Shown here in pieces: positions 1 to 20,679 of a DNA stretch of 64,000 nucleotides. The stretch's first letter is position 1. Every line of letters starts with the position of its first letter. The DNA is from a bacterium (lineage in GTDB: Bacteria > Vulcanimicrobiota > Vulcanimicrobiia > Vulcanimicrobiales > Vulcanimicrobiaceae): positions 62,001 to 126,000 of the forward strand of contig JAKBKY010000002.1 in assembly GCA_021832345.1 (NCBI GenBank), written 5' to 3'. Below the pieces are notes generated by a model, which was not told the DNA's origin, did no database searches, and worked only from the letters and a program-made list of their open reading frames with translations. The position numbers and the translations under genes were made by a program.

Positions 1-1008
1 CGCGAGCATGCCGACCGAGTCTGCATGGCCTACACTCATCTGCAGCCCGCCGAGCCGACGACCCTGGGCTATCGTCTGGCGGTCTATGCGCAGGATCTGA
101 CGATTGACGAGGCCGCGTTGCGCTTTGCCTTTGAGAACGTGACGGCCAAGGGCTTGCGCGGTGCCGTCGGAACCGCCGCCTCCTACGAACACCTCGTGCA
201 CCACAGCGGTCGCTCCGCCGAGCTTGAGGCCTACGTGCTGGAGCGGTTCGGCTTGCGCGCGCGAGAGATCGCCACGCAGACCTATCCGCGCAAACTCGAC
301 TACCTCGTCCTTTCGGCACTAGCGGGCCTGGGCGCATCGCTCTCAAAGTTCGCAGCCGATGTGCGCATCCTCAGTTCGCCCGGCTTTGGCGAAGTGGCGG
401 AACCCTTCGGTCGCGCGCAGGTCGGCAGCTCGGCGATGCCGTTCAAACGTAATCCGATCCTGAGCGAACGCATCGATTCGCTCGCCCGGCTCCTGCCGGG
501 ATACGCCGATGTCGCCTGGCAGAATGCGGCCACGAACTACCTGGAGCGCACGCTCGACGACAGTGCAAATCGCCGCGCGATTCTTCCCGAGGCGTTCCTT
601 TGCGCCGATGAACTGCTGAGCCTGACGCACAAGATCGTTCGCGGCTTGCAGATCGACGAGCGCCGCATCGAGCAGAATCTCCACACCTACGGCGTCTTCT
701 CCGGTACCGAAGCGATCCTCATGGAAGCGGTGCGTGCCGGCGGGGATCGGCAGAGCCTTCATGAAGTGTTGCGCGACGTGGCGATGGAGGCATGGGACGC
801 GTTGCGGCGCGGTGAGGAGAACCCGCTCGCCGATCTGCTCGTGCGGCGCCCCGAGCTCACGGCGCTGCTCGACGGCGCGACGATCGTCGCGCTGCTCGAC
901 CCGAGCAAACACATCGGCACCGCACGGGAACGCGCGCGTGCCTTGGCCGAGCGCATCGATGCGCTCGAACCATTCCCTACACAACCGGAGGTCAGCATCA
1001 CATCGTGA
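1..1008 (+). CDS. purB: Adenylosuccinate lyase (5' end outside window)
   Basis: PurB releases fumarate from SAICAR and from adenylosuccinate, acting twice in purine synthesis. The reading frame is open from base 1, so the N-terminus lies outside the window. An internal ATG at position 25 is not the real start because the family motif around THLQPAEPTT begins just after it. The signature loop SSAMPFKRNP of the fumarase/aspartase superfamily is present near residue 145 of the visible part, and the C-terminal helical domain looks complete. The stop codon overlaps the GTG start of the following purC by the bases GTGA, so the two are translationally coupled at the head of the visible purine operon. 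Confidence 0.95.
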   Translation, partial: REHADRVCMAYTHLQPAEPTTLGYRLAVYAQDLTIDEAALRFAFENVTAKGLRGAVGTAASYEHLVHHSGRSAELEAYVLERFGLRAREIATQTYPRKLDYLVLSALAGLGASLSKFAADVRILSSPGFGEVAEPFGRAQVGSSAMPFKRNPILSERIDSLARLLPGYADVAWQNAATNYLERTLDDSANRRAILPEAFLCADELLSLTHKIVRGLQIDERRIEQNLHTYGVFSGTEAILMEAVRAGGDRQSLHEVLRDVAMEAWDALRRGEENPLADLLVRRPELTALLDGATIVALLDPSKHIGTARERARALAERIDALEPFPTQPEVSITS

Positions 1009-2195
1009 ATAAAGGCATTGAAATTGCGCGGGGCAAGACGAAGGTTCTTTATGAATCGCTCGGTCAGCCCGACCAGCTCGTCGTTATGCAGACCGACGCG
1101 ATCTCCGCCGGCGACGGCGCGCGCCGCCATCAGATCGCGGGCAAAGGGCGCCTCGCCGCGCAGACCACCGCACGCGTCTTCCGCTTGCTCAACCTCTGCG
1201 GCCTGCCGACTCATTATTTGAGCGGCGGCGAAGATGACGACCAGAACGAGATGCTGGTGCGCCGTTGTAATATGATTCCGCTTGAAGTCGTCGTGCGCGG
1301 GGCTGCAGCCGGCTCGTTCGCCAAGCGTCATCCTGGAATCGCGCAAGGCTCGATGCTGATGCCGCGGGTGATCGAGTTCTTCTTTAAGGACGACGCCGCC
1401 CACGATCCGCTTATCACGAACGATCAGATCGTCGAACGCGGCCTAGCCTCCCCGGTGGAGGTAGGTGCTATGACCGAGATCGCGCGCTTGGCCTTTGAGA
1501 TGTTGGCACACGCGTGGCGGCGACGCGATACGCTGCTCGTGGATCTCAAAGTGGAGTTTGGAAGGCTTGCCGGTGGTGAGAACCAAGGCCAGTTGGTGCT
1601 CGCCGACGTCGTCGACAACGATGCATGGCGCATCTGGCCGCAGGGGCGCCAAGAGTTGATGCTCGATAAGCAACTCTATCGGAATCTGCCCGAGGTGGAT
1701 GATGCGGCGCTGGCACGCGTCAAGGAAGCCTATGAAGAGGTCGCCGACATCGTAGGATCGTTTCCGCAGATGCGTCCGGGGATGGTGGCGATGTTCGCCG
1801 ACGATCAGGGCTACGAGGACCGCTTTGCCGAGGTGGCGGCGGCCCTTGGCCAGTTCGGCATTCCCTCGATGCGTCGCGTCGCAAGTGCGGTCGTTACGCC
1901 TGGGTACGCGTTGCAGATCGTGGGCCAGTTCGAGGCTGCCTTCGCCCGTCTGCTCTACGTTGCGTTGGGCGATCCGATGCTCTATGCACTGCTCGATCAT
2001 GCGACGACCGCGCCGGTCGTCGACGGGAACGACGATCCGCCGCTGGTCGCGTTGCGCTGCGCCAAACTCCTGGGGCTCGACGATACGGTCCTCTTCGGGC
2101 GCACGTTGCTGGCTCAAGCCAACCGGCGCTCGATGGTGCTGGCCGCCGATGCGGCCTTACAGGTCCCGGCTCCACCGGGTGCTGCGTTTGCGTAG
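1005..2195 (+). CDS. purC: SAICAR synthetase with fused, degenerate PurE-like domain
   Basis: Residues 1 to about 240 are a full SAICAR synthetase, which ligates aspartate to CAIR using ATP. Visible motifs are ARGKTKVLYE, the SAG(D/N)GAR stretch, VVRGAAAGSF and LVDLKVEFG, with VLADVVDNDAWR after it. The protein resembles animal PAICS more than a short bacterial PurC. Residues from about 255 to 395 align to PAICS/PurE by eye (GQFGIP, then RVASAVVTP). However, the PurE active-site motifs are gone: GS(S/T)SD is replaced by ADDQGYED, SAH(R/K) by SAVV, and the glycine-rich carboxylase loop by ALGDPML. The domain is therefore probably structural or regulatory and not an AIR carboxylase. The GTG start is preceded by CGGAGG and overlaps the purB stop. 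Confidence 0.92.
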   Translation: MNKGIEIARGKTKVLYESLGQPDQLVVMQTDAISAGDGARRHQIAGKGRLAAQTTARVFRLLNLCGLPTHYLSGGEDDDQNEMLVRRCNMIPLEVVVRGAAAGSFAKRHPGIAQGSMLMPRVIEFFFKDDAAHDPLITNDQIVERGLASPVEVGAMTEIARLAFEMLAHAWRRRDTLLVDLKVEFGRLAGGENQGQLVLADVVDNDAWRIWPQGRQELMLDKQLYRNLPEVDDAALARVKEAYEEVADIVGSFPQMRPGMVAMFADDQGYEDRFAEVAAALGQFGIPSMRRVASAVVTPGYALQIVGQFEAAFARLLYVALGDPMLYALLDHATTAPVVDGNDDPPLVALRCAKLLGLDDTVLFGRTLLAQANRRSMVLAADAALQVPAPPGAAFA

Positions 2196-4395
2196 TGTCA
2201 CGGATGGGCTTGCGCGCCTCGCGCTGCGCCCCGATGAACGCGAGCGCATCGCGCAACAGTTGGGGCGCGAACCGACCCTCGTCGAGTGGTACGCATTCGA
2301 TGCGCAGTGGAGCGAGCATTGCTCCTATAAGTCGAGTCGTCGCCATCTAGCGAAGCTTCCAACGAGCGGCCCCGGCGTCATCCTGGGGCCGGGCGAAGAT
2401 TCAGGCGTTCTGCGTCTGGGCCGCCGGCAAGGAGAAGAGTACGCCATCGTCATTGCGCACGAGTCGCACAACCATCCGTCGCAGGTGGTGCCCTTTGAAG
2501 GGGCCGCCACGGGCATCGGCGGCATCGTGCGCGACGTGCTCTGCATGGGCGCCGAGGTGATTGCGCTCGCCGATCCGCTGCGCTTCGGTCGCGCCGGCGA
2601 TCCAAACTCGCACGCGTGCTCCGTCGCGCGCGGCGCCGTCGACGGCATCTCGGCCTATGGCAACGCGATCGGCGTTCCCAACCTCGCGGGAGACGTCTAC
2701 TTTCACGAGGGCTTCGATGAGAACTGCCTCGTGAACGTGGTAGCACTGGGGTTGGTCAAAGAACCTGAGATCGTGCATTCGTTCGTGCCGAAGGGCGCCG
2801 CCGGATGGGCGATCGTTCTCGTCGGCAAAGCCACCGACGCCAGCGGCTTCGGCGGAGCGTCGTTCTCGTCGGGAACGCTCGATGTTGCCGACGACGATTC
2901 GAATAAGGGGGCCGTCCAGGTTCCCGATCCGTTCCTGGCGAGCGTGCTCATGCGCGCCTCCTACCGCGTCTTCGCGATGCTGCGCGAACGCGGTCTGGTC
3001 GTCGGATACAAGGACCTTGGGGCCGGCGGCATCATGGGCTGCAGCGCGGAGCTGTGCAGTTCCGGCGGCTTCGGTGCGCGTATCGAGCTGGATGCCGTCA
3101 ATGCGGCGCTCCCGGGCCTGGCGCCGGAGGTGCTGGCCGTCGGCGAAACGCAGGAGCGTCTCTGTTGGGCCTTGCCTCAAGAGATCGTCGCGGACGTGCT
3201 GCGCATCTATAACGACGAGTTCTCGCTGCCGCAGATCGCCCGCAATGCGTGCGCGGTCGTCATCGGTGAGGTCACCGCCGAGCCGCGCTACGTGCTCTAC
3301 CATCGCGGCGAGATCGTGATGGACGTGGATATCGACCTGCTGACTGGTTCGATTCGGGACGATCTCCCCGTGCAGCCATGCGTCGCTCGGCCGAGCGTCG
3401 ATCCTGCGATCGCCGATCGTAGACTGGCCGCAGTCCAGTCGCAGGCGGATCTCGCAGCCTCGTTGCTCGCGCATCGCGACGTGGCTTCGCGCGAGCCGCT
3501 CTATCGTCGCTACGATCGCGTCGTTCGCGGCGCGACGGTGATCCCTCGCGGCGTCGCGGATGCGGGCGTTCTGGCGCCGATCCCCGGCTCACCCCTGGGC
3601 GTGGCGCTGGCGGTAGCCGGCAATCCTCGTTACGGTGCGCTCGATGCGCAGCGCGCAGCGGAGTTGGCCGTCGTCGAGGCGGTTCGTAGGGTCGTTGCCG
3701 TCGGCGCGCGCCCGATCGGTCTAACGGACTGCTTGAACTTCGGCAATCCGCGCCAGCCCGAGCAGTACGCGCAGTTCCTTGCGGCGATCGACGGCTTATC
3801 GGCGGGTGCGCGCGCGCTGGAGCTGGCGTTCGTCTCCGGGAACGTCAGTTTCTATAATGAATCCGCCTTGGGCCGGGCGGTCCCGGCATCGGCGATCGTC
3901 GCTTGTGTCGGCGCGTGTGACGACCTTTCGACCCTGCGTCTTCCGAACGTAGGCGATAGCGGCGACCGGCTGGTGCTGGTGGGCGCGCATGCGGGTGCGC
4001 TCGGCGGATCGGTTGCGGCTGCGCTCCTGGGCATCGACGAAGGGTTGCCCGAGGTGGATCTTGGCGCCGAGTGCGCATTGCATGCGCAGGTGCAGGGCAT
4101 CGGTTCGTGCGCACGCGTCGTCGGTGACGGCGGAGCGCTTGCAACCATCGCGCAGATGCTCTTCGGCGCAGATGAGCGGTTGGGCGTGCGCTTCACGCCG
4201 GGGCTTGCGCTGCGTACGCTGCTGGCAGAGAGCAACGGATTCGTCGTGGTTCAACCGAGCGCAGAGCCGCCCGCCGGCATCGTCCTGGGCACCGTGACCG
4301 GCGACGCGGTGATGCAGTTTCCCGACGAAAGCGTGGTGGCCGTTGCCGATCTGAAGGCGCTCTGGTCGGCGAGCCTTGAGGATATCTACCCGTGA
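2179..4395 (+). CDS. purL: Phosphoribosylformylglycinamidine synthase, small-type PurL
   Basis: This is the synthetase subunit of FGAM synthase, converting FGAR to FGAM with ATP and ammonia delivered by PurQ. Near the N-terminus it has WSEHCSYKSS and ESHNHPSQVVPFEGAATG (the active-site histidine region), followed by the two AIRS-type domains expected of a roughly 740-residue PurL that works with separate PurQ and PurS. The open frame extends far upstream into purC, but homology begins only around position 2180. GTG at 2179 or TTG at 2188 are the plausible starts; I used GTG 2179, which overlaps the end of purC by 17 bases. The C-terminus overlaps purQ through GTGA. Confidence 0.95.
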   Translation: MLRLRSVTDGLARLALRPDERERIAQQLGREPTLVEWYAFDAQWSEHCSYKSSRRHLAKLPTSGPGVILGPGEDSGVLRLGRRQGEEYAIVIAHESHNHPSQVVPFEGAATGIGGIVRDVLCMGAEVIALADPLRFGRAGDPNSHACSVARGAVDGISAYGNAIGVPNLAGDVYFHEGFDENCLVNVVALGLVKEPEIVHSFVPKGAAGWAIVLVGKATDASGFGGASFSSGTLDVADDDSNKGAVQVPDPFLASVLMRASYRVFAMLRERGLVVGYKDLGAGGIMGCSAELCSSGGFGARIELDAVNAALPGLAPEVLAVGETQERLCWALPQEIVADVLRIYNDEFSLPQIARNACAVVIGEVTAEPRYVLYHRGEIVMDVDIDLLTGSIRDDLPVQPCVARPSVDPAIADRRLAAVQSQADLAASLLAHRDVASREPLYRRYDRVVRGATVIPRGVADAGVLAPIPGSPLGVALAVAGNPRYGALDAQRAAELAVVEAVRRVVAVGARPIGLTDCLNFGNPRQPEQYAQFLAAIDGLSAGARALELAFVSGNVSFYNESALGRAVPASAIVACVGACDDLSTLRLPNVGDSGDRLVLVGAHAGALGGSVAAALLGIDEGLPEVDLGAECALHAQVQGIGSCARVVGDGGALATIAQMLFGADERLGVRFTPGLALRTLLAESNGFVVVQPSAEPPAGIVLGTVTGDAVMQFPDESVVAVADLKALWSASLEDIYP

Positions 4396-5162
4396 ACCGT
4401 CGCATCGCGGTGCTGGTCTTTCCCGGGACAAACTCGGAAGGCGAGACCCTGCGTTTGTTGCGCGACCTCGGTGCGGATGCGCAGTTAGTCCATTGGAGCC
4501 GGCCGCAGGAGCTGGCTGCGTATGGCGCCTACGTTCTGCCGGGCGGCTTTGCCTACGAGGATCGGATTCGAGCCGGCGCGATCGCCGCACACGACCACCT
4601 GATGGACGCCGTCATCGACGGCTGTGCGAAGGGCAAGCTCGTCTTGGGCATCTGCAACGGCGCGCAGATTCTGCTGGAAGCCGGGCTCGTTCCGGGGACC
4701 GCTGCCGCGCGCAGGCCCACGGCGGCCTTTACGCACAATGCGCCGCAGCCACACTTTATCTGCCGGCACGTCTACGTCAAGCTTGCGAGCGCACCGATGC
4801 GCTCGGCGATCACTGCATCGCTGGATGAAGGTGCGTTGATCCCCGCATGGGCCGCGCACGCGCAGGGGCGATTGGCGGCAGGCCCCGAGCACCTGGCCGA
4901 GTTAGTGGAGGGCGCGCATGTCGCATTCGTCTATGCCCACCCCGATGGTCGTGTTGACGAGCAGGCCGTCCCCAACGGTTCGGCGTTGGGATGCGCGGGT
5001 TTGGTGAACCGGGAGGGCAACGTCTTGGCGCTCATGCCGCACCCCGAACGCGACGCGTGGAACGTCAATCATCTGCAACGCCGTGTCGGCGAGGCGCTCT
5101 TTGCGCCCTCCGGCGGCGCCGTGCTCTTCGAGAGCTTCGTGCGGGCGGTGCAGCGCGCATGA
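4392..5162 (+). CDS. purQ: FGAM synthase glutaminase subunit PurQ
   Basis: A class I glutamine amidotransferase that supplies ammonia to PurL. It begins with AVLVFPGTNSE, carries the nucleophilic cysteine in GICNGAQIL and the catalytic histidine in MPHPER. The length of 256 residues is slightly above the usual 225-235 of stand-alone PurQ. GTG start and TGA stop overlap both neighbours by four bases, giving an unbroken purB-purC-purL-purQ-purS translational chain. Confidence 0.95.
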   Translation: MNRRIAVLVFPGTNSEGETLRLLRDLGADAQLVHWSRPQELAAYGAYVLPGGFAYEDRIRAGAIAAHDHLMDAVIDGCAKGKLVLGICNGAQILLEAGLVPGTAAARRPTAAFTHNAPQPHFICRHVYVKLASAPMRSAITASLDEGALIPAWAAHAQGRLAAGPEHLAELVEGAHVAFVYAHPDGRVDEQAVPNGSALGCAGLVNREGNVLALMPHPERDAWNVNHLQRRVGEALFAPSGGAVLFESFVRAVQRA

Positions 5163-5566
5163 AGACTCGCTACGTGGCGGTTCGCTTGAAGATCCCCGAT
5201 AACCAGGCCTACACGGCGCTGGTGGTGCTGCAGCGGCTTGGGATAGCGCTCGGGCAGGTAGAGCGCAGTGAGATCTACGAGCGAGAAGAAGAGGCCGGCG
5301 GTGCCGCGGAGCTGGCGCGACGGACCATGCGCGATGAGTCGGTCTTCAATCCCAATAAGCATACGCTCGCCGTACTCGAGCAGAACGTGCCGCGCACCGG
5401 CGAAGTGTGGATCGAAGAGTGCGACACGCCGCGTGCGCCGAACCGGCCACGCTACATCGGGTGGCGCCTGTTCCTCACCGATGGAACCCCGGCCGATCGG
5501 GCGACCATCGAAGCAGCCACCACGCGGTTACTCTGTAATCCCGCTATCGAAAGGGCGATCATGTAA
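5159..5566 (+). CDS. PurS-like subunit of FGAM synthase, enlarged
   Basis: The 135-residue product sits exactly where purS is expected, between purQ and purP, and starts at ATG 5159 (ATGA overlap with purQ). The N-terminus, TRYVAVRLKIPDNQAYTALV, has the beta-strand then helix pattern of PurS, and the C-terminus TTRLLCNPAIERAIM resembles the PurS end (leu-leu-x-asn-x-hydrophobic-glu). Normal PurS is about 80 residues. Here about 50 extra residues, including a charged REEEAGG linker and a second strand-rich block, lie between the halves. It could be an expanded or duplicated PurS scaffold. The assignment rests on position and weak similarity, so I leave the symbol blank. Confidence 0.5.
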   Translation: MKTRYVAVRLKIPDNQAYTALVVLQRLGIALGQVERSEIYEREEEAGGAAELARRTMRDESVFNPNKHTLAVLEQNVPRTGEVWIEECDTPRAPNRPRYIGWRLFLTDGTPADRATIEAATTRLLCNPAIERAIM

Positions 5567-6589
5567 ATGGACGGCCAGTACACCATCGCCACGCTGGGCT
5601 CGCATTCAGCGCTTCAGATTCTCAAAGGTGCTCGCGACGAGGGCTTCGGAACGCTTGCGATCGCAAGCCGAGAGACCGAACGGCTCTACCGTTCGTTCAA
5701 GTTCGTCGACGAAGTCATGACGCTCGATCGCTACCAAGACTTTCCGAAGATCGTCGCGGACCTTCAGCGGCGCAAGGCGATCATCGTGCCGCATGGTTCC
5801 TTTGTAGCCTATCTTTCGCTCGAAGAGCAGAAGCAGATGACCGTTCCCTACTTTGGGAACAAAGCAGTGCTTGATTGGGAGGCAAGCCGAGAACTACAAC
5901 GTGAGTGGCTCACGCGTGCCGGTTTGCAGCTTCCGCGGCAGTTCCGCAGCGGTGCGGAGATCGACCGCCCGGTGATCGTCAAACTCTACGGCGCAGCCGG
6001 CGGAAAGGGGTATATGTTCATCCGTGATGCGGCGGACTTCGAAACGCGGGCGGCCAAGCTGCAAGAGGCCTATACCATCCAGGAGTACATCATCGGCGTT
6101 CCGCTCTACATTCACTACTTCTACTCGCCGCTCGACGATACGCTAGAGATCATGAGCATGGACCGCCGTTACGAAACGAACGTCGACTCGCTCGGTCGTA
6201 TCCCTGCCGCGGCCCAAGAAGGCATGGATGTGAGCCCGTCCTATGTGGTCGTCGGCAACTCGCCGGTCAGCCTGCGGGAGTCAATGCTGGTCGAGGCGTT
6301 GCGCATGGGCGAAGACGTTGTGCGCGTCAGTAAGGAGATCTGTCCGCCGAAAGGGCTCTTCGGGGCCTTCTGCATCGAGACCATCATTACGCCGGACATT
6401 CAGTTCTACGTGATGGAGATCTCGGCGAGAATCGTCGCGGGGACGAACCTCTTCATCGACGGTTCTCCCTATTCGTATCTCAACTACTCCGAGTCGATGT
6501 CCACGGGGCGCCGGATCGCCCGTGAGATCAAGAACGCACTGTTAACAAATAACTTGGGACGGGTATTGGATGATTCGAGCGTACTCTAG
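5567..6589 (+). CDS. purP: Formate-dependent AICAR formyltransferase PurP (archaeal type)
   Basis: PurP is an ATP-grasp enzyme that makes FAICAR from AICAR, formate and ATP, replacing the folate-dependent transformylase half of PurH. The N-terminus IATLGSHSALQILKGA is the hallmark of the archaeal family, and the C-terminal EISARIVAGTNLF followed by GSPYSYLNYSE is also diagnostic. Other conserved segments include VKLYGAAGGKGY (nucleotide binding) and QEYIIGVPLYIHYFYSP. Length (340) matches archaeal PurP at roughly 350-360. It begins one base after the stop of the purS-like gene and so belongs to the purine operon. No purH is visible in the window. Archaeal-type PurP is well known in archaea and uncommon in bacteria. 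Confidence 0.93.
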   Translation: MDGQYTIATLGSHSALQILKGARDEGFGTLAIASRETERLYRSFKFVDEVMTLDRYQDFPKIVADLQRRKAIIVPHGSFVAYLSLEEQKQMTVPYFGNKAVLDWEASRELQREWLTRAGLQLPRQFRSGAEIDRPVIVKLYGAAGGKGYMFIRDAADFETRAAKLQEAYTIQEYIIGVPLYIHYFYSPLDDTLEIMSMDRRYETNVDSLGRIPAAAQEGMDVSPSYVVVGNSPVSLRESMLVEALRMGEDVVRVSKEICPPKGLFGAFCIETIITPDIQFYVMEISARIVAGTNLFIDGSPYSYLNYSESMSTGRRIAREIKNALLTNNLGRVLDDSSVL

Positions 6590-7700
6590 ATCGGCCAAGC
6601 TCGCCGTCGCGGTGGGTGCGATCGCGTTGATGCTGAGAACCACATCGGCGAACGCGGCACTGCTGGCGGACCCGTCCCGGCTCTATGCCGCTATGCAGCG
6701 TGCCTACGCGCGCGGGCAGACGCAAGGCTGGTCGTTCTACAACCAGGAGTATTACCTGGCGACCATCTTCAACGCCGGTCGGGCCTATGCGCTGCAGCGC
6801 CCAAACGACCCGGTCTTTGCGCAGTTGGCGATACTCACCGTGCAGATCGGCGCGGGGCTGCACTACGATCCGTTGACCAACCACGATGCCTCGGTCTGGT
6901 ACGTGCGCCAAGCCGCTAACTGGGTGCTGCTCCACTCCACCGACCCAGCGCTCCGGCGCGACGCGACCCGCTTGCTGCGGCGTGCCAACGCGGTCGCGCA
7001 CCCGCGGCGCTTAGCGGTCTATGCCAACGAAGATGCGGCCGCCAACCTTAAAGAGTATCCTCGCGACACCGGGGCGCTCGTGCAGCAGCTTGAGGCCGCC
7101 TGGCGCGCTTGGACGATCACGAAGAATCCAACGTGGCGCTCCCTGGCTTTTTCGCGCGCCGCCAATCCCGACTTTCCGGTTGCGCATCTGCCGACCAGCT
7201 TCGGCCTGGACTTCATCACCGCCGCGCGCTCGGCTACGGCGGGCGTTGCCGGATATACTTCGCTCGATGCCATCGATGCGGAGATCTTTCTCCGGCGTCT
7301 GGCCGGGGTGAGCCCCTTGCGCGTCATCGCTCGGGAAAAGTCGCTGCCGGCTTCGAAGATTCTGACGACGTTGGCACCGGCCGATGAGTATTTCGGGCCG
7401 TTAAAGATGTCGATTCTCGGCATCAAGAACGAGATCAAACGCATCAATCTGCTGCTCGACTACAAGTACGGCAATCGCGAAAGCTCCGCCGCCGTGGAGG
7501 TGAGTAAGTCGATCGATGCCATGCATCGCGCCTATCCGCTCGATCGGGCCCTGCCGCGCTTGCTCTACGAAGCCTACTTCATGCTCGGGCGGCTGACGAC
7601 GCATCAAGCCCGTAGCGAGCGAGCGCGCATGCGCTCGATCCTGACCATCGAGTATCCGGATACGCCGCAGGCCGAGCAGTTGCTTGGGATAACGACGTGA
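6570..7700 (+). CDS. Exported protein of unknown function between two purP genes
   Basis: I do not recognise a family. The product of 376 residues starts with a positively charged segment and a hydrophobic stretch (KLAVAVGAIALML) ending near SANAALL, which reads as a Sec signal peptide. The mature part is predominantly helical, with aromatic-rich segments such as GWSFYNQEYYLATIF and a C-terminal Arg/Glu-rich helix. It overlaps the end of purP by 20 bases and the start of the second purP-like gene by four (GTGA), so it is co-transcribed with two cytoplasmic purine enzymes. That placement is odd for an exported protein. Confidence 0.75.
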   Translation: MIRAYSRSAKLAVAVGAIALMLRTTSANAALLADPSRLYAAMQRAYARGQTQGWSFYNQEYYLATIFNAGRAYALQRPNDPVFAQLAILTVQIGAGLHYDPLTNHDASVWYVRQAANWVLLHSTDPALRRDATRLLRRANAVAHPRRLAVYANEDAAANLKEYPRDTGALVQQLEAAWRAWTITKNPTWRSLAFSRAANPDFPVAHLPTSFGLDFITAARSATAGVAGYTSLDAIDAEIFLRRLAGVSPLRVIAREKSLPASKILTTLAPADEYFGPLKMSILGIKNEIKRINLLLDYKYGNRESSAAVEVSKSIDAMHRAYPLDRALPRLLYEAYFMLGRLTTHQARSERARMRSILTIEYPDTPQAEQLLGITT

Positions 7701-8851
7701 AGCCCGCGTCTAGAGCACACTACGACGTCGCTGCGGTCTTGGCGCGCTACGATCTCGATCGCCTGACGCTCTGCTCGGTCGGTAGCCACTCGGCGCTCGA
7801 CGTCGCCGCCGGCGCTCGGGCTGCCGGGTTACGCAACCTGATCGTCACGGCACGCGGCCGCGAGCAGACCTACGTTCGGCATTTCGCGCGGCGCGAGCAA
7901 CCCATTGCGCGCGGATGCGTGGACGAGACCTTGGAGCTGGGCTCGTTCCCGGAGATTCTCAACGACGACGTGCAGCAACGGCTGCTGGCTGCCAATGCCG
8001 TCTTCGTCCCGAACCGCTCCTTTGAAGTCTATCTGCATCAGCGCTACTCCTACGATGAGATTGAATCCGGGATGCGCATCCCATTCTTCGGCAATCGCTA
8101 CCTGTTGCGCGCGGAAGAGCGCGATGAGGCCGGCAATCAGTACTCCCTCTTACGCAGCGCGCGCATCCGCCATCCGCGGCAGTTCTCCTCGCCGCAGGAG
8201 ATCGATCGGCTGGTCATGGTGAAGGCGCCGCATGCCAAGGTGAGCTTCGAGCGAGCCTTCTTTCTCTGCTCGACGCCTGCGCAGTATCAGCAGATCTCCG
8301 AACGCCTCCTGGCGGAGGGGACGCTCACACAGGAGGGCTTAGCGGGCGCGCTCATCGAGGAGTACCTGCTGGGCCCATCGATTAACCTGAACTTCTTTTT
8401 CTCGCCGTTTTTGGGCGAACTCGAACTGCTCGGAACGGATACGCGCCGTCAGACCAACCTTGAAGGCTTTCGCAACGTGCCGCCGTCGGCACTCGCCGCC
8501 GTCCACGACATCCCGATGCGCTTAGAAGAAGCCGGGCATATCGCTGCAACGCTGACCGAGTCGATGCTGGAAGAGGCGTTTGCCATGGGCGAGCGCTTCG
8601 TGACGGCGGCGCTCACGCAACTGCCGCCGGGCGTCATCGGGCCCTTTGCACTGCAATGCGTGATTCTGGCCGGCCCTCCGAAGGAGTTCGTCTGTTACGA
8701 TGTCTCGTTGCGCATTCCGGGCTCGCCCGGGACGCGCTACACGCCGTACTCCGCCTATCGGTGGGGGCGCGACGTCTCCGTCGGCGAGCGCATCGCCATG
8801 GAGCTGCTCTTTGCTCGCGACGCAGGTACGCTGCAGACCGTCTTAACCTGA
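7697..8851 (+). CDS. Second PurP-family ATP-grasp protein
   Basis: This 384-residue protein is a diverged paralog of the PurP encoded 1.1 kb upstream. It keeps the N-terminal CSVGSHSALDVAAGA motif, the FFGNRYLLRAEE block, IEEYLLGPSINLNFFFSP and a C-terminal YDVSLRIPGSPG where PurP has EISARIVAGTN. The glycine-rich ATP-grasp loop is altered (VKAPHAKVSFERAF where PurP has VKLYGAAGGKGYMF). Archaea often carry two PurP-like genes whose second member is not fully assigned. Here it may be a partner subunit, a backup transformylase, or an enzyme with another substrate. It ends convergently over the methyltransferase gene by nine bases. Confidence 0.85.
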   Translation: MKPASRAHYDVAAVLARYDLDRLTLCSVGSHSALDVAAGARAAGLRNLIVTARGREQTYVRHFARREQPIARGCVDETLELGSFPEILNDDVQQRLLAANAVFVPNRSFEVYLHQRYSYDEIESGMRIPFFGNRYLLRAEERDEAGNQYSLLRSARIRHPRQFSSPQEIDRLVMVKAPHAKVSFERAFFLCSTPAQYQQISERLLAEGTLTQEGLAGALIEEYLLGPSINLNFFFSPFLGELELLGTDTRRQTNLEGFRNVPPSALAAVHDIPMRLEEAGHIAATLTESMLEEAFAMGERFVTAALTQLPPGVIGPFALQCVILAGPPKEFVCYDVSLRIPGSPGTRYTPYSAYRWGRDVSVGERIAMELLFARDAGTLQTVLT

Positions 8852-9442
8852 CGCGCGCAAGACAAAGTGGTAGGGGAACTGCGGCACGTCGAGTGCGTCG
8901 ATGCGTGTAAAACCGGCGTGGCGCAGGCGTTGCCCGGCTTCCTCCGGAGTGTGGACGTGGTCGGGTGGCGGGCCGACAGGGCGCTCTCGTGTGCCGTCCC
9001 AGTCCACGATCAGTGCCCAGCCGCCGGGTGCGGCGCGCGCGCGCAGTTCCGCCAGATCGGCGTCGCCGATCTCGTGGAGCACGTTCACCGCCAGGACTCG
9101 ATCGTAGGCATGCGCAGGAAGTTCGCCCGCGTTGCCGGTCTGCGTCACGACGTTGGCAAGGCCACGCTGCGCTACACGTTCCTCGACGATGGCGATCATC
9201 TCGGGTTGCACGTCGAAGGCGCAGACCCGGGTGCGCGGATGTGCGGCCGCCAGCGCCAACGCGTAGCGACCGGTGCCCGTTCCGAAGTCCAAGGCATACG
9301 CATCGGCGCGAAGGTCGAGCAGCGCGACGAGGCGCTCGGTGGGCAACCAGGCTTCGCGCGCGGGATCGTCCAGGCGCTCGGCCCGGTCGGCAGAGAAGAT
9401 CTCGGGTTGTTTGGCGCCGTGGCGCGGATCGACATGCGACAT
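8843..9442 (-). CDS. Class I SAM-dependent methyltransferase
   Basis: A 199-residue Rossmann methyltransferase with motif I DFGTGTGRYALALA, an acidic end of strand 2 (AFDVQPEMI) and a motif IV-like VLAVNVLHEIGD. The fold resembles UbiE/ArsM-like small-molecule methyltransferases, and the substrate cannot be told from sequence. It is transcribed against the purine operon and lies head-to-head with guaA, sharing a 92-base intergenic region. The ATG start at 9442 has no strong Shine-Dalgarno sequence. Confidence 0.8.
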   Translation of the reverse strand: MSHVDPRHGAKQPEIFSADRAERLDDPAREAWLPTERLVALLDLRADAYALDFGTGTGRYALALAAAHPRTRVCAFDVQPEMIAIVEERVAQRGLANVVTQTGNAGELPAHAYDRVLAVNVLHEIGDADLAELRARAAPGGWALIVDWDGTRERPVGPPPDHVHTPEEAGQRLRHAGFTRIDALDVPQFPYHFVLRASG

Positions 9443-9534
9443 GGGTCGGAGCGCTTCGCGCTGCGAGCGCAGGAGCCTCCGCGCCGGGATGAATGGAGCA
9501 GGTTGGCTGCGAAACGGGCAAGCCCGGAGGAAGC

Positions 9535-11079
9535 GTGAGTCTCGAAACCGTCATCGTGCTCGATTTCGGAGCGCAGTATAGCCAACTTATCGCCAGACGC
9601 GTTCGAGAGCTTGGCGTCTACTGCGAGATTCTTCCCTACGACACGCCGTGGAGCCGGCTGGTGGAGTTGGCGCCGTCGGCGCTCATTCTCTCCGGTGGTC
9701 CGGAGAGTACGCTTGACCCGTCGTCACCGGATCTCGATCCGCAGATCCTGCAGAGCGGCCTGCCGATCCTCGGCATCTGTTACGGCATGCAGTTGGTTGC
9801 GCGCCATCTTGGAGCGCAGCTCGTCAAACTCGAGCATCGTGAGTACGGTCCGGCGATGCTGGCGCTGGTCGGCGGCGCTTCGCCGTTCTTGGCCGGCGTG
9901 CCGGATGACTCTCGCGTATGGATGTCGCACGGTGATTCGGTCATCCGGCTCCCCGCAGGTTTCACGACGTTGGCATCCACGCCTCGCTGTCAGGTCGCGG
10001 CGATGGGCGATGCGGCGCGGCGGATCTTCGGTGTGCAGTTTCATCCCGAGGTGGCTCACACGACGTTTGGCCGGCAAATCTTGCGCAACTTTCTGCGTGA
10101 GATCGCCGGGTTGCAGGCGCAGTGGAAGATGGAGTCGTTCGTCGAGCGTGCCGTCGCGCAGATTCGCGAGCAGGTAGGCGGCGCAGGAGTCATCTGTGCG
10201 CTCTCGGGCGGGGTCGATTCGGCCGTCGCGGCGACACTGGTGGCGCGCGCCATCGGCGAACAACTCACCTGCATCTTTGTGGACCACGGGTTGCTGCGAG
10301 CGGGCGAGGCGCAAGGCGTTGTGGAGGCGTTCCGCGACCAACTGCATCTCAATCTGGTCGTGGTTGACGCACAAGCGCGTTTTCTAAGCAAACTCGCCGG
10401 CATCGATGATCCGGAACGCAAGCGCATCGTCATCGGCCACGAGTTCATCGCGGTCTTTGAAGAAGAGGCCGCCAAGATCGCCGGCGTCGGCTACCTGGTG
10501 CAAGGGACGCTCTACCCCGACGTGATCGAATCCAAGACTCCGCAGAGCAAGGCCGGGCATAAGATCAAGTCGCACCATAATGTCGGTGGCCTGCCGGAGC
10601 AGATGGAGTTTGCATTGATCGAGCCGCTACGGCTGCTCTTCAAAGATGAAGTGCGAGTGTTGGGGCGGGTGCTCGGCCTGCCGGACCACATCGTCGAGCG
10701 CCAGCCCTTCCCGGGCCCGGGTCTTGCGGTGCGGATCATCGGCGACATCACGCAGGAGCGCATCGAGGTGGTGCGGGCCGCCGATGCGATCGTACGGCAA
10801 GAGATCGAGCGCGCGCGCCTCGACCCTAAGCCGTGGCAGTACTTTGCGGTGCTCACGCCGGTGCGTAGCGTCGGGGTTATGGGCGATGGCCGCACCTACG
10901 GCAACCTCGTCGCGGTGCGAGCGATTACAAGCGAGGACGGAATGACCGCCGACTGGGCACGCTTGCCGCACGAGCTGCTCGAAACGATCAGCACACGGAT
11001 CGTCAACGAAGTCCCGGGCGTCAATCGCGTCGCCTACGACATCACCTCGAAGCCCCCATCGACGGTCGAATGGGAATGA
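9535..11079 (+). CDS. guaA: GMP synthase (glutamine-hydrolysing)
   Basis: GuaA aminates XMP to GMP. The N-terminal class I amidotransferase domain starts TVIVLDFGAQYSQLIARR with nucleophile GICYGMQL and catalytic His-Glu in FHPEVAHT. The ATP-pyrophosphatase domain follows with the SGGVDS P-loop around residue 220, then the dimerisation domain ending PPSTVEWE. An earlier ATG at 9493 is in frame, but homology starts at the GTG at 9535, preceded by GGAGGA, giving 514 residues, close to the usual 510-525. It heads a guaA-purD pair. Confidence 0.95.
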   Translation: MSLETVIVLDFGAQYSQLIARRVRELGVYCEILPYDTPWSRLVELAPSALILSGGPESTLDPSSPDLDPQILQSGLPILGICYGMQLVARHLGAQLVKLEHREYGPAMLALVGGASPFLAGVPDDSRVWMSHGDSVIRLPAGFTTLASTPRCQVAAMGDAARRIFGVQFHPEVAHTTFGRQILRNFLREIAGLQAQWKMESFVERAVAQIREQVGGAGVICALSGGVDSAVAATLVARAIGEQLTCIFVDHGLLRAGEAQGVVEAFRDQLHLNLVVVDAQARFLSKLAGIDDPERKRIVIGHEFIAVFEEEAAKIAGVGYLVQGTLYPDVIESKTPQSKAGHKIKSHHNVGGLPEQMEFALIEPLRLLFKDEVRVLGRVLGLPDHIVERQPFPGPGLAVRIIGDITQERIEVVRAADAIVRQEIERARLDPKPWQYFAVLTPVRSVGVMGDGRTYGNLVAVRAITSEDGMTADWARLPHELLETISTRIVNEVPGVNRVAYDITSKPPSTVEWE

Positions 11080-11107
11080 ACTACTCCACTTGTGGTAGGT
11101 GTGTAAG

Positions 11108-12394
11108 ATGCGAATCCTGATCGTTGGAGCCGGCGCACGCGAAGATGCGCTCTCGTGGCGGCTCGCGCAGTCGCCGTCGTGCGAAGCGGTCTTTGCCGCT
11201 CCCGGCAACGCCGGCACCGCATCGCGCGGGCAGAACTGGCCGATCGCCGCGACCGACGGCGTGGCGCTGGTGAAACGCTGCCAGGAGCAGCGCATCGATC
11301 TGGTCGTCCTGGGGCCGGAGTCGGCGATCGCCGCCGGCGTCGGCGATCGGCTGCGCGATGCGGGCCTCGCCGTCTTTGGGCCAAACCGCTCCGGCGGGCG
11401 TTTGGAGTCGAGCAAAGTTTTTGCGAAACGCTTCATGGAGCGCCATGGTGTGCCCACGGCGCGCGCACGGATCGTTCATTCGCTTGAAGCGGCGCAGCGG
11501 GAGCTCGATGCCTGGTCAAGCGGCGGGGTTGTGGTGAAAGCCGATGGTTTAGCCGCAGGCAAAGGCGTGGTCGTTGCGCCGGATGTCGAGGCGGCGCGCG
11601 GCGTAGTGGAGTCGTGGTACCGCTCCCATAGCGTGCCGGGCGGCGGCACCGATGTGTTGCTCGAAGAACTCCTGGTGGGGCGTGAAGTGAGTGTCTTTGC
11701 ACTCTGCGATGGGCGGGCGACCGTTCCATTTGCGGCCGCCTGCGACTATAAGCGCGCGGGGGACGGCGATACCGGGCCAAATACCGGCGGCATGGGGGCC
11801 TACGCTCCACCGCAGGGCTTGCCTGCCGATCTCTTCGATCGGGTCCGCGAGCGGATTCTCTCTCCGGTCCTGCGCGGGCTGCTGGCCGAGGGTGAAACCT
11901 ACATCGGCGTGCTTTACTGCGGCTTGATGTGGACCGGCGACGGTCTTAAGGTTATCGAGTTTAACGCTCGGTTCGGCGATCCCGAGACCCAGGTCCTGAT
12001 GCCGCTCGTCACCGGTGACTTTGCCGCGCTGCTGAAGTCCGTCGCCGACGGCGCGATGGATGTGAGCCTCGCTGCGGTCTGCGGCAAGAGCTGCGTCGGC
12101 GTCGTTCTGGCCGGTACCGAGTATCCTCGGCGTTCGGTGCCGGTGCAGGGGCTGCGCGCCGAGCTGCCGCTCGATTCCGGGACCCAGGTGTTCTGGGGCG
12201 GCTCGACGCTGGTGGACGGCCGTGTCGATGCAAGCGGAGGCCGGGTGCTCACGGTGACGGCGGTTGGCGAGGACATCGCCGATGCTCGAACCCGGGCGTA
12301 CGAGGCCGTAGCGCGGGTAGCCTCTACGTTGGGAACCCGCGAACTCAGCTATCGACGTGACATCGGCGATTTCGCACAACGCGACCGGCAGTAA
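11108..12394 (+). CDS. purD: Phosphoribosylamine-glycine ligase
   Basis: PurD is the ATP-grasp enzyme for step 2 of purine synthesis (PRA plus glycine to GAR). Seen: the N-terminal MRILIVGAGAREDALSW, the segment VVVKADGLAAGKGVVVA, YKRAGDGDTGPNTGGMG, and metal-binding EFNARFGDPETQ. The 428-residue length is normal. ATG 11108 was chosen over the in-frame GTG 11099 because homology starts at MRIL. It follows guaA after 28 bases. Confidence 0.96.
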   Translation: MRILIVGAGAREDALSWRLAQSPSCEAVFAAPGNAGTASRGQNWPIAATDGVALVKRCQEQRIDLVVLGPESAIAAGVGDRLRDAGLAVFGPNRSGGRLESSKVFAKRFMERHGVPTARARIVHSLEAAQRELDAWSSGGVVVKADGLAAGKGVVVAPDVEAARGVVESWYRSHSVPGGGTDVLLEELLVGREVSVFALCDGRATVPFAAACDYKRAGDGDTGPNTGGMGAYAPPQGLPADLFDRVRERILSPVLRGLLAEGETYIGVLYCGLMWTGDGLKVIEFNARFGDPETQVLMPLVTGDFAALLKSVADGAMDVSLAAVCGKSCVGVVLAGTEYPRRSVPVQGLRAELPLDSGTQVFWGGSTLVDGRVDASGGRVLTVTAVGEDIADARTRAYEAVARVASTLGTRELSYRRDIGDFAQRDRQ

Positions 12395-13176: not shown

Positions 13177-14547
13177 ATGTGCGGCATCGCTGGAGTCTAC
13201 GCCCCGGGTCGTGATGCGGCTCGGTTAACGTACTTTGCGCTCTATGCGTTGCAACACCGCGGCCAGGAGTCGGCCGGCATCGCGGCCTCAGACGGCGGAA
13301 CGATTCGCTCGCACAAAGAGATGGGGTTGCTTGGCGCGATCTTCAACGAGGAGATTCTCGCCATGTTGGCGGGGTTTCTCGCGGTCGGCCACACGCGCTA
13401 CTCGACCAGCGGCTCCTCGATCGTCGTCAACGCGCAACCGTTGCTCGAGCGCAGCGAGCTCGGGGACTTTGCCTTTGCGCATAACGGCAATCTTACCAAC
13501 ACCGACGAACTGCGGGAGGCTCTCTCGCCCAGCACCATCCTGCAGGCCGGCTCCGACTCCGAGGTGCTTGCCAAAGCGTTGGTCGAGGCGTCAGGGTCGA
13601 TGGTCGAACGCATCCGCGCGGTCATCGCGCGCGCGCGCGGCGCGTACTCGGTCGTCCTCTCCACCGAAACGGAACTCTACGCCTTTCGCGATCCATGGGG
13701 CGTGCGCCCGCTCTGCTTAGGCTCGCTGCCGGAGAACGGCTGGGCCGTTGCCTCCGAATCGTGTGCGCTCGGGACCATCGGCGCAACCTACGTGCGTGAG
13801 ATCGAGGCCGGCGAGATTCTGCGCATCGGCGCGCACGGAATCGAGTCGGTGACGGTGGATGTTCCGGACGCGTTTCCGGCGCTCTGCATGTTTGAATACA
13901 TCTACTTCGCTCGCCCCGATTCCAAGCTTGCCGGCCGGAGCATCTATATGGCACGTTATGAGATGGGCCGGGCGCTTGCGCGCGAGCACCCGGTGGATGC
14001 CGACGTTGTCATGGCCGTTCCGGATTCGGCGGTGCCGGGTGGGATAGGCTACGCAACCGAAAGCGGCTTGCCGTATGTTGAGGGTCTTATCAAGAATCGT
14101 TACATCGGGCGCACCTTCATTAGTCCCGATCAATCGATGCGCAATCTCGGCGTGCATCTGAAGTTTAACCCGGTTCTTGAGAATTTGCGCGATCAGCGCG
14201 TGGTTGTCGTCGACGACTCCATCGTTCGCGGCACGACGACTCCGAGGATCGTCTCGCTCCTGCGCGATGCCGGCGCCAAAGAGGTGCATCTTCGCATCAC
14301 CTCGCCGCCGATCAAACACCCGTGCTATCTCGGCGTCGATATGGCCACCTACGATGAACTGATCGCCGCCAACTACACCGTCGAAGAGATTCGCGCTCGC
14401 ACGGGGGCTGATTCGTTAGGCTATCTTGGCCTCGATGAACTGATCGCCGCTACCGGGCGTAAGCGCGAAGAGATGTGCCTAGGCTGCCTGATCGGCACCT
14501 ATCCCAACGTTCCGTCAACCCACCGCACGCGCGTCCTCGCGCAATGA
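13177..14547 (+). CDS. purF: Amidophosphoribosyltransferase, Fe-S type
   Basis: PurF commits PRPP to purine synthesis. The N-terminal nucleophile cysteine is in MCGIAGVYAPG, and the PRPP-binding loop is VVVVDDSIVRGTT. The four cysteines of the Bacillus-type 4Fe-4S cluster are present: one in LCMFEYIYFARPDS, one in KHPCYLGVDMAT and two in CLGCLIGTYP, so this is the oxygen-sensitive Fe-S class (456 residues). The N-terminal propeptide seen in some members is absent. The stop overlaps the ClC gene by ATGA. Confidence 0.96.
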   Translation: MCGIAGVYAPGRDAARLTYFALYALQHRGQESAGIAASDGGTIRSHKEMGLLGAIFNEEILAMLAGFLAVGHTRYSTSGSSIVVNAQPLLERSELGDFAFAHNGNLTNTDELREALSPSTILQAGSDSEVLAKALVEASGSMVERIRAVIARARGAYSVVLSTETELYAFRDPWGVRPLCLGSLPENGWAVASESCALGTIGATYVREIEAGEILRIGAHGIESVTVDVPDAFPALCMFEYIYFARPDSKLAGRSIYMARYEMGRALAREHPVDADVVMAVPDSAVPGGIGYATESGLPYVEGLIKNRYIGRTFISPDQSMRNLGVHLKFNPVLENLRDQRVVVVDDSIVRGTTTPRIVSLLRDAGAKEVHLRITSPPIKHPCYLGVDMATYDELIAANYTVEEIRARTGADSLGYLGLDELIAATGRKREEMCLGCLIGTYPNVPSTHRTRVLAQ

Positions 14548-18045: not shown

Positions 18046-19578
18046 CTACACGCTCGCGCGTGCGGTCGCGGCACCGTTGGCGTGGATCATCGGTGTTCCG
18101 GCGAGCGTCTCCACCAGCGCGACGAAGGCGCGAACGGGGGTCCCGGTGGGGCCCTTCGCCTGCCATGCCGTCTCGTTGTCGACGTAGGCGGTGCCGGCGA
18201 TGTCCAGATGTACCCACGGCGTTTTGTCCACGAAGGCCTTGAGGAACGCGGCTGCCGTGAGAGTCCCGGCCGGTCGTCCGCCGGTGTTCTTCAGATCGGC
18301 GATGTCGCTCTTCATCTGTTTGGTGTAGTCGTCGTAGAGCGGCATCTGCCAGTAGCGCTCGCCGGTAGGTTTTGCGATCCCTAGGAACTGCGTGATGAAG
18401 GCGTCGTCGTTGGAGACCGCGGCGCCGGCGGCGTGACCGAGCGCGATCACGCAAGCGCCGGTCAGCGTGGCGGCATCGACGATCTTGGTTGCGCCGAGTT
18501 TGTTGGCATAGCAGAGCGCGTCGGCCAAGACCAGACGCCCTTCGGCATCGGTGTTAATCACTTCGATCGTCATTCCGTTGCTGGCCCGAACGATGTCGCC
18601 GGGTTTGGTGGCCGCCTCACCGGGCATATTCTCGGTGGCCGGGACGATGCCGACGACATTGAGCTTGGGTTTGAGCGTCCCGATCGCTTGCATGGCGGCG
18701 ATGACGCCCGCACCGCCGCACATATCGTACTTCATCTCTTCCATGCGCTCGGGTGGTTTGAGCGAGATGCCGCCGGTGTCGAAGGTGATGCCTTTGCCCA
18801 CCAGCGCCAGCAGCTCTTTGCTCGACGGATCGCCGCGATAGGTCATGACGATGAAGGCCGGCGGCTGCGCGCTGCCTTGAGCAACGGAGAGAAACGACCC
18901 CATGCCTTGGCTCTTCGCCCACGCGGCGTCGTGAATCTCAACGCTGATGCCGGTGGCTTTGCCCACCGCTTGCGCCTGCTGCGCCATGTGCGCCGGCGTC
19001 ATGTCGTTGCCCGGCGTGAGTGCCAGGCGTCGCGCGAGGTTGACGGCTTCGCCGATCGCGATGCCGCGCTCTACGCCCCGCGTGAGCGCCTCCGCGTCGA
19101 ATCCCTCGGCGAGCAGCGTCACCACGGTTGCGACATTCGGCTTCTCCGGTTTCTCTTGGTAGATCGTCGTATCCAGGTGCGCCGTGATCGCTCCCTCCGC
19201 GGCAAACGATGCACAGGCAGCGGCGTGCGCACGCGCTTCGAGGGGCAGCGCAACGGCAATCTCCCCGACGTTGCGATGCCCTAGGGAGCGCACCGCCGCG
19301 CCGGCGTAGCGCGCCATCACGAGCGGCTCGAAGGCCGCACGATCCCCCAGCCCAACGAGCAGCACCCGCCGGAAGGGATGCTCCTTGGCATGGATGAGGC
19401 TCATCTCGGCGAGCTTGCCGGAGATTTCCTTGGAGGCGAGCACATCGGTGAGGACGCCGCCCAGGGCGGCATCGAGCGCCGCAGCGACTCCTTCGAGCTT
19501 CCCGTCGGAGAAGACCGGAACCACGAGGGCCCCGGCGCGCACCTCAAGCGGCGCATCGGCAGCGATACGGACTTGCAT
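18046..19578 (-). CDS. pepA: Leucyl aminopeptidase (M17 family)
   Basis: A cytosolic two-metal aminopeptidase removing N-terminal residues from peptides. The C-terminal catalytic domain shows VGKGITFDTGGISLKP (metal lysine and aspartate), the M17 signature NTDAEGRLVLADAL and the AATLTGACVIALGH region. An N-terminal macro-like domain precedes it. The ATG at 19578, preceded by AAAGGTTGACC, gives 510 residues. The gene heads the pepA-panB-exported-protein transcript and is divergent from purM with 33 bases between starts. Confidence 0.93.
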   Translation of the reverse strand: MQVRIAADAPLEVRAGALVVPVFSDGKLEGVAAALDAALGGVLTDVLASKEISGKLAEMSLIHAKEHPFRRVLLVGLGDRAAFEPLVMARYAGAAVRSLGHRNVGEIAVALPLEARAHAAACASFAAEGAITAHLDTTIYQEKPEKPNVATVVTLLAEGFDAEALTRGVERGIAIGEAVNLARRLALTPGNDMTPAHMAQQAQAVGKATGISVEIHDAAWAKSQGMGSFLSVAQGSAQPPAFIVMTYRGDPSSKELLALVGKGITFDTGGISLKPPERMEEMKYDMCGGAGVIAAMQAIGTLKPKLNVVGIVPATENMPGEAATKPGDIVRASNGMTIEVINTDAEGRLVLADALCYANKLGATKIVDAATLTGACVIALGHAAGAAVSNDDAFITQFLGIAKPTGERYWQMPLYDDYTKQMKSDIADLKNTGGRPAGTLTAAAFLKAFVDKTPWVHLDIAGTAYVDNETAWQAKGPTGTPVRAFVALVETLAGTPMIHANGAATARASV

Positions 19579-19611
19579 GGTCAACCTTTCACTAGGGTGA
19601 ATGAGGGGGCG

Positions 19612-20679
19612 GTGAGCCCCGATAACTCTCCCCCTTTTCGCCCGGAGAACGCGCCGGGACCTCTCGACGCCTATGCGCGCTCGGGCGTGGACATTGCGGC
19701 AGGCAACGCGGCGGTCGCCGCTTACCGGAGCGTGCTTGGCTCCTGGCGTCACCCCGATCAGCTCGATGCGATCGGGGGCTTCGGCGGCCTCTTCCGGCTG
19801 CCCGGCAGCGACGACCGGGCGCTGGTGGCCTCGACCGACGGCGTCGGAACGAAGATTCTGATCGCCGCCGAGCTGCACCGTTACGACGGTGTCGGCTGGG
19901 ACCTGGTCAACCATTGCGTCAACGACATCCTGGTGGTGGGGGCCGACCCGCTCTTCTTTCTCGACTATCTCGCCGTCGGCAAACTCGACCCCGGCGTTGC
20001 CGCGGCGCTTGTGGAAGGGTGCGCGCGGGCCGCTCGGGCGCACAACTGCGCGCTGCTCGGCGGTGAGACCGCCGAGATGCCCGGAGTCTATGCGCCCGAA
20101 CACTTCGATCTCGCCGGTACGATCGTCGGCATCGTCGACCTGGACCGTGTGCCGAAGCACACCGATGTTGCACCAACCGACGCGATCATCGGGTTGCCCG
20201 CGGTCGGGCTGCATACCAACGGTTACTCGCTTGCGCGCGCGCTCATCTCCCACGATGAGTGGAACGCATCCTTCGCCGGTGCTACCTACGCCGATGCGCT
20301 GCTGGCCGAACACCCATCGTACTTTACGCGGGTGCGAGCGATCCAGCGCGTCGCGCGCGTGAAGGCGATGGCGCATATCACCGGAGGCGGACTCCTCGAG
20401 AACGTCGGTCGTACCTTGCCAAGCGGCGTGAAAGCGATCTTCGAACAAGCGCGCTGGAGCGTGCCGCCGATTCACCAAGAGTTGGTGGATCGCGGGAAGC
20501 TTTCGGTTGAAGAGCGGTACCGCACGTTGAACATGGGCGTGGGCTATACGCTCGTCGTGCCCTGCGCCGATGCGCCCGCTGCGCTCGCGGCCGTGCCCGG
20601 GGCGTTTGTGGCCGGCTGGATCGAAGCGCGTGAGGGCGAGCAGCCGCAGGTCGTGGTGCATCCCGCGCGCCAAGCGTGA
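19612..20679 (+). CDS. purM: AIR synthetase (phosphoribosylformylglycinamidine cyclo-ligase)
   Basis: PurM closes FGAM to AIR with ATP. Seen: LVASTDGVGTKILIA, VNDILVVGADPLFFLDY, LLGGETAEMPGVY and GGGLLENVGRTLP. The open frame reaches far upstream across the divergent pepA promoter region. GTG 19612, sitting three bases after a GAGGGGG ribosome-binding site, gives 355 residues, close to the usual 345. Its stop overlaps the following purN fusion by four bases. Confidence 0.95.
   Translation: MSPDNSPPFRPENAPGPLDAYARSGVDIAAGNAAVAAYRSVLGSWRHPDQLDAIGGFGGLFRLPGSDDRALVASTDGVGTKILIAAELHRYDGVGWDLVNHCVNDILVVGADPLFFLDYLAVGKLDPGVAAALVEGCARAARAHNCALLGGETAEMPGVYAPEHFDLAGTIVGIVDLDRVPKHTDVAPTDAIIGLPAVGLHTNGYSLARALISHDEWNASFAGATYADALLAEHPSYFTRVRAIQRVARVKAMAHITGGGLLENVGRTLPSGVKAIFEQARWSVPPIHQELVDRGKLSVEERYRTLNMGVGYTLVVPCADAPAALAAVPGAFVAGWIEAREGEQPQVVVHPARQA

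Follow-up and report, generated by a model that had tools for sequence, protein, structure and literature searches.

A bacterial cluster I/cluster II PurP gene pair that probably acts as a single unit at the end of purine synthesis

Archaeal PurP-like proteins split into the clusters Ia, Ib and II, as laid out in the parts of Brown et al. 2011 (PMC3261824) on which we draw here. Cluster II proteins carry His in place of Asn258, have a loop that is two residues longer and devoid of the P-loop glycines, and keep His27 and Arg314. Positions follow MJ0136, the only PurP of Methanocaldococcus jannaschii, for which the same authors assign H27 and R314 to contacts with the formyl group, N258 to the carboxamide, and S94 and S266 to the phosphate. 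The parts used also place PF1517 in cluster Ib and report both PF1517 and PF0421, i.e., one protein per cluster, to be without AICAR formyltransferase activity. Furthermore, they list no known cyclohydrolase for the Crenarchaeota and some Thermococcales. PurP itself is described as exclusively archaeal in the part used of a 2014 paper (PMC4177761).

Here, we analyse two purP genes of a bacterium. They are located in a window of 64,000 nucleotides, i.e., the whole stretch of DNA that was studied. The first gene, purP1 (5567..6589, forward strand), encodes a 340 aa homologue of cluster I (Ib-like) with the P-loop GAAGGKG, N258 and EISARIVAGTN; its nearest PDB match is PF1517 (337 bits). The second gene, purP2 (7697..8851, forward strand; 384 aa, GTG start), encodes a cluster II homologue with about 31% identity to PurP1. 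Its ORF has no internal stop codon, and in the domain search the protein is covered end to end by DUF1246 (1.2e-32) and DUF1297 (1e-48), with no match to the PF07826 (PurO) or MGS (PurH2) domains. Both copies miss the curated cut-off for NCBIfam FAICAR synthetase (233.6 vs. 556 for PurP2, 380.5 vs. 590 for PurP1).

The initial annotation had described purP2 as a second PurP that keeps GSHSALD while its glycine-rich loop and EISARIVAGTN are changed, which is confirmed by both domains and alignment. The two proteins share GSHSAL, and the full GSHSALD is retained in PurP2. Where cluster I and PurP1 have GAAGGKG, PurP2 has HAKVSFER. The cluster I P-loop is replaced by APHAKVSFERA (residues 177-187 counted from the start codon; 8225..8257, forward strand) in a loop that is two residues longer and without glycines, and the FAICAR synthetase P-loop (K/R)GG(K/R)G is absent from the aligned PurP2. 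The position of Asn258 of MJ0136 is taken by His281 (by residue count; codon 8537..8539, forward strand). Finally, YDVSLRIPGSPG replaces the FEISARIVAGTN-type motif at residues 334-345 (8696..8731, forward strand), where it aligns with EISARIVAGTN of PurP1 and where R339 corresponds to R314 of MJ0136. Judged from the alignment, the lost P-loop argues against PurP2 being interchangeable with PurP1.

Structure prediction of both copies, a check proposed along with the initial annotation, resulted in mean pLDDT values of 89.2 for PurP2 and 86.3 for PurP1. The PurP2 model matches the M. jannaschii PurP 2r7k with Z 39.0 (rmsd 2.4 over 334 residues) and the P. furiosus PurP 2r84 with Z 30.7. The similarity of the model to 2r7k together with the invariant H258 of PurP2-type proteins implies that the resemblance to PurP is not due to chance.

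With regard to the residue marks, position 258 is Asn in 126/126 PurP1-type rows and His in 77/77 PurP2-type rows of our alignments, where some genes are counted twice because loci overlap. R314 is missing in one and H27 in three of all these rows, each exception being a gap. In the PurP2-type rows, neither the AGTN motif nor the glycines of the P-loop are left, and nearly all of these rows retain H27, R314, S266 and H258; in addition, PurP2 shows D310 in place of E. All PurP2 rows form a single clade in the tree (SH-aLRT 100), archaeal cluster II proteins included; the latter were identified from sequence similarity together with the residue marks and not via published locus tags. Given the residue marks and this clade support, we classify PurP2 by sequence as a cluster II protein and PurP1 as a cluster I protein: PurP2 combines DUF1246 and DUF1297, H258, the longer glycine-free loop, H27/R314 and membership in the clade, while its own genome (2.34 Mb) holds two PurP copies, one of each cluster type. 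The suspected parallel to unassigned archaeal paralogs is supported by this.

PurP2 is under purifying selection and no pseudogene. We obtained dN/dS values of 0.09-0.15 for PurP2 and 0.02-0.10 for PurP1 (Nei-Gojobori, four pairs), with some synonymous distances near saturation and frames that may extend upstream of the true starts. The PurP2 values exclude a recent pseudogene, which had been named as one of the outcomes that would speak against a distinct role. The faster change of PurP2 within these pairs would fit a redundant PurP1 isoenzyme in slow decay, but this reading is already largely refuted and we regard it as highly improbable given the purifying selection, the residues fixed across phyla and the lack of stop codons within any listed match.

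The pair is embedded in genes of purine synthesis. On the forward strand, the window starts with the 3' part of purB (25..1008; Lyase_1, ADSL_C), purC (1005..2195; SAICAR_synt), purL (2092..4395 for the part scanned; the listed ORF starts at 1825) and purQ (4392..5162; GATase_5), followed by a small PurS-like ORF (5159..5566; 135 aa from its ATG), purP1, an ORF X and purP2. A methyltransferase gene on the reverse strand (8843..9442) shares 9 bases with the 3' end of purP2 and precedes guaA (9493..11079), purD (11099..12394), one further ORF and purF (13177..14547; GATase_6/7, Pribosyltran), with guaA, purD and purF again on the forward strand. The same strand carries a purM-like gene (19378..20679), whose AIRS domains follow a long N-terminal extension of about 140 residues, and a purN-like formyltransferase gene (20676..21812) with an extension of about 170 aa. 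The PurS-like ORF itself matches PurS weakly (E 0.021) and its end resembles PurS; it is probably a diverged PurS, since its orthologue in a genome of family f3 (L047) yields a PurS match of 1.3e-7. Related arrangements are found elsewhere, namely PurL-PurQ-PurE-PurC-PurB-P1-P2-GuaA in several Woesearchaeota loci and PurH-UppP-P1-P2 in Peregrinibacteria loci, where the labels come from sequence clusters named by eye rather than from profiles.

ORF X (6570..7700, forward strand; 376 aa) possibly encodes an exported protein of unknown family: its N-terminus resembles a signal peptide as judged by eye, and no Pfam match was found up to E 10. It overlaps purP1 by 20 bases and shares GTGA with purP2, so all three genes may be translated together. 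ORF X is confined to the window's family f1, where most of its length aligns at 36-55% identity, and it is less conserved than the flanking purP genes. Among the genomes read from f2 and f3, the purP genes are adjacent with no ORF X in between, and it is likewise missing from this place in one f1 genome (G077). The gene between purP1 and purP2 is thus family-specific and probably an incidental feature. The initial annotation had taken the two copies on either side of an exported protein as a hint at a subfunction for PurP2. The significance given to the exported protein falls with its restriction to f1, while the idea of a partner subunit agrees with the gene order and strict co-occurrence of both purP genes.

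Next, we consider the distribution of the pair. The window's class, which we take to be that of Vulcanimicrobium alpinum (Eremiobacterota), accounts for nearly all DUF1246 matches of the phylum (113/149 genomes): 112/117 genomes within the class (families f1, f2 and f3) have a match compared to 1/32 outside of it. Two matches are found in 101 of the 117 class genomes, one in 7, three or four in 4 and none in 5. For a wider scan, a cluster I query (first row PF1517) was used and the best 80 of 537 relatives were taken, which is not a census and includes no locus of the window's class. Among these 80, PurP1 is present in Thermococcales, in other archaea (Woesearchaeota, Aenigmarchaeota, Nanohalarchaeota, Bathyarchaeota, Brockarchaeota and Heimdallarchaeota), in CPR bacteria (Peregrinibacteria, Gracilibacteria, Kaiserbacteria and Curtissbacteria) and in two records labelled Nitrospirota, with taxon labels of metagenome-assembled genomes (MAGs) as recorded. 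This spread over bacteria contradicts the view of PurP as exclusively archaeal. In a literature search over titles and abstract openings, which left most subscription journals outside, we encountered no report of bacterial PurP pairs. Cluster II itself was already known; its bacterial host range is unexpected.

The pairing is strict. For the 63 non-Thermococcus loci within the best 80 of 537 relatives, PurP2 is encoded downstream on the same strand in 57 and in another arrangement in 1, while 5 show no PurP2 within the locus. At least two PurP copies were nevertheless found in all 51 non-Thermococcus genomes from this set that were searched again (CPR, Nitrospirota, archaea), including the five without PurP2 at the locus; in two of the latter (G312, G314) the second copy is hit in two pieces. 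In these two genomes, the two DUF1246 pieces of one PurP copy lie within one open frame, as with an insertion of about 300 bases. In the tree, PurP1 and PurP2 of the class have the same two genomes (L122 and L136) as sisters (support 100 for PurP1 and 92, with L096 included, for PurP2), and the pair has therefore probably travelled together. The correlation of PurP1 and PurP2 distances is not above the correlations of PurP1 with neighbouring genes.

Together with the directly shown points on cluster membership, residues, fold, operon setting and strict pairing, we consider how both proteins might act. PurP1 and PurP2 probably cooperate as a single unit at the end of purine synthesis. More specifically, as our preferred reading but with clear reservation, we propose a formate- and ATP-dependent AICAR-to-IMP unit in which PurP2 would be the cyclising subunit. 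Here, PurP1 with its intact ATP-grasp loop would activate formate with ATP and formylate AICAR to FAICAR. PurP2 would bind to PurP1 as an obligate partner, probably as second subunit. Lacking the P-loop but equipped with the formyl contacts H27 and R314 and the phosphate contact S266, it would bind FAICAR and probably close the ring to IMP, driven by the His at the Asn258 position together with H27. The kept H27/R314, the His at position 258 and the lost ATP loop are the reasons for this assignment; the role of His258 in cyclisation is our own inference and not taken from Brown et al. A counterpoint to such a unit is the phosphate contact S94, which aligns with Tyr in 48/77 PurP2-type rows; the remaining rows, including PurP2 of the window, have Ser.

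The phyletic patterns speak both for and against a complete AICAR-to-IMP unit. We studied 50 pair-bearing genomes, hand-picked across groups from the best 80 of 537 relatives and mostly MAGs that may be incomplete. The PurH transformylase domain is found in 37 of them, many of which are only 0.7-1.5 Mb in size, and PurO in 5. In 9/50 there is neither of the two, nor MGS in a PurH-type frame; MGS in these genomes is restricted to CarB-sized frames or to a single frame of 598 aa, stays below cut-off, or is absent. Within the Thermococcus phylum (115 genomes, for which copies were counted without thereby proving one copy per cluster, and whose relatedness makes a Fisher p-value an unfair test of the counts below), exactly two PurP copies are present in 45 genomes and PurO is absent in 42 of these. 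With at least three PurP copies, PurO is present in 46/49 genomes, i.e., the third copy goes with PurO. Twelve of the 42 two-copy genomes without PurO have MGS outside of CarB-sized frames (9 of PurH size), while 30 have none and therefore no known cyclohydrolase. In ten genomes of this phylum (G203-G212), MGS is located in a PurH-size frame (537-544 aa) near purP on the opposite strand.

These counts also bear on a different role of PurP2, namely that of a non-catalytic or regulatory partner. The pair would then be only a formate-dependent AICAR formyltransferase, with cyclisation left to PurH, PurO or another enzyme. We consider this a possible but doubtful explanation. It agrees with the strict pairing, with the fact that the pair is kept even if cyclisation is provided by PurO or PurH, and with PurP2 having neither P-loop glycines nor AGTN. 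However, the conservation of H27, R314, S266 and H258 in nearly all PurP2-type rows goes beyond what a scaffold needs, and cyclisation is left unexplained for the genomes that have neither PurO nor PurH. For the AICAR-to-IMP unit, in turn, it follows from the apparent retention of PurP2 alongside PurO (the 46/49 genomes above) that the role of PurP2 is probably broader than cyclisation, or not cyclisation. Strict pairing despite PurO or PurH is better explained by an obligate partner than by an enzyme acting merely at the next step of the pathway.

The class itself keeps full-length PurH, with the transformylase domain found in 109/117 genomes. The markers checked by motif, i.e., RY and KH of the transformylase and K, Y and D of the cyclohydrolase, are intact in 21/21 class members, for which reason we reject PurP as a substitute for a decayed PurH. 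As side observations, PurH of the class (L039, 1953..3578; L139-L158) has Val or Ile instead of Asn in KHxNPCG in 21/21 genomes, and this Asn is present in E. coli and in three further genomes from the phylum. The PurH transformylase domain is in two pieces in four genomes that belong to the phylum but not to the class (G134, G136, G137 and G138). We also rejected PurP as a substitute for missing PurN or PurT: PurT shows no match over cut-off in the 149 genomes of the phylum, but PurN-like matches are found in 146/149, of which 13 are above the curated cut-off.

Given full PurH in the class and the PurH domain in 37/50 pair-bearing genomes, the pair looks redundant. This redundancy would vanish if the pair, or PurP2 alone, used another substrate, a reading that gains from the coexistence with the PurH transformylase domain in both genome sets and from Korarchaeum cryptofilum, which according to the parts used of PMC3261824 has both genes and no de novo purine pathway. 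We nevertheless hold it to be rather unlikely, since the pair is placed among pur genes in the window and in Woesearchaeota loci, and the other formylation step of the pathway is covered by the PurN-like matches, few as are above the curated cut-off.

Extending the proposed AICAR-to-IMP unit beyond this locus is speculative. Cluster II PurP may constitute a third, so far unrecognised family of IMP cyclohydrolases that originated from an ATP-grasp formyltransferase, lost its ATP loop and gained a catalytic His in place of the Asn that binds the carboxamide. Together with cluster I, it would form one AICAR-to-IMP synthase complex in bacteria and archaea and supply the cyclohydrolase that has been missing in Crenarchaeota and Pyrococcus. 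We think that this is possible, if on balance doubtful. What clusters Ib and II do and which IMP cyclohydrolase serves the many archaea that lack a known one are questions that have been standing since at least 2011, as raised in PMC3261824. Nearly all genomes of a bacterial class with a cultured aerobic mesophile carry the two-gene form of PurP, which is also common in CPR bacteria. Mesophilic bacterial pairs should be easier to express and complement in E. coli than proteins of hyperthermophiles, such that both questions become directly testable.

Finally, we compare PurP2 with the known systems. To the IMP cyclohydrolases PurO and PurH2 it relates by the proposed reaction only, being without PF07826 and MGS. 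With MJ0136 (2r7k), the FAICAR synthetase of M. jannaschii, it shares fold, domain architecture and formyl-contact residues, but it differs by the missing GG(K/R)G loop and by having H258 and D310 at positions where MJ0136 has N and E. Closest are archaeal cluster II proteins such as PF0421 and AF0256, as described in PMC3261824: like these, PurP2 has H258, the longer glycine-free loop and H27/R314, and is present as a single copy in a genome that also holds one cluster I protein. AF0256 lies in a gene cluster with guaA1, which parallels purP2 and guaA of the window. In contrast to archaeal cluster II, PurP2 has a bacterial host and a place in a long pur operon. It is also set apart by the full-length PurH of its genome, a combination that the same source gives for the Methanosarcinales.
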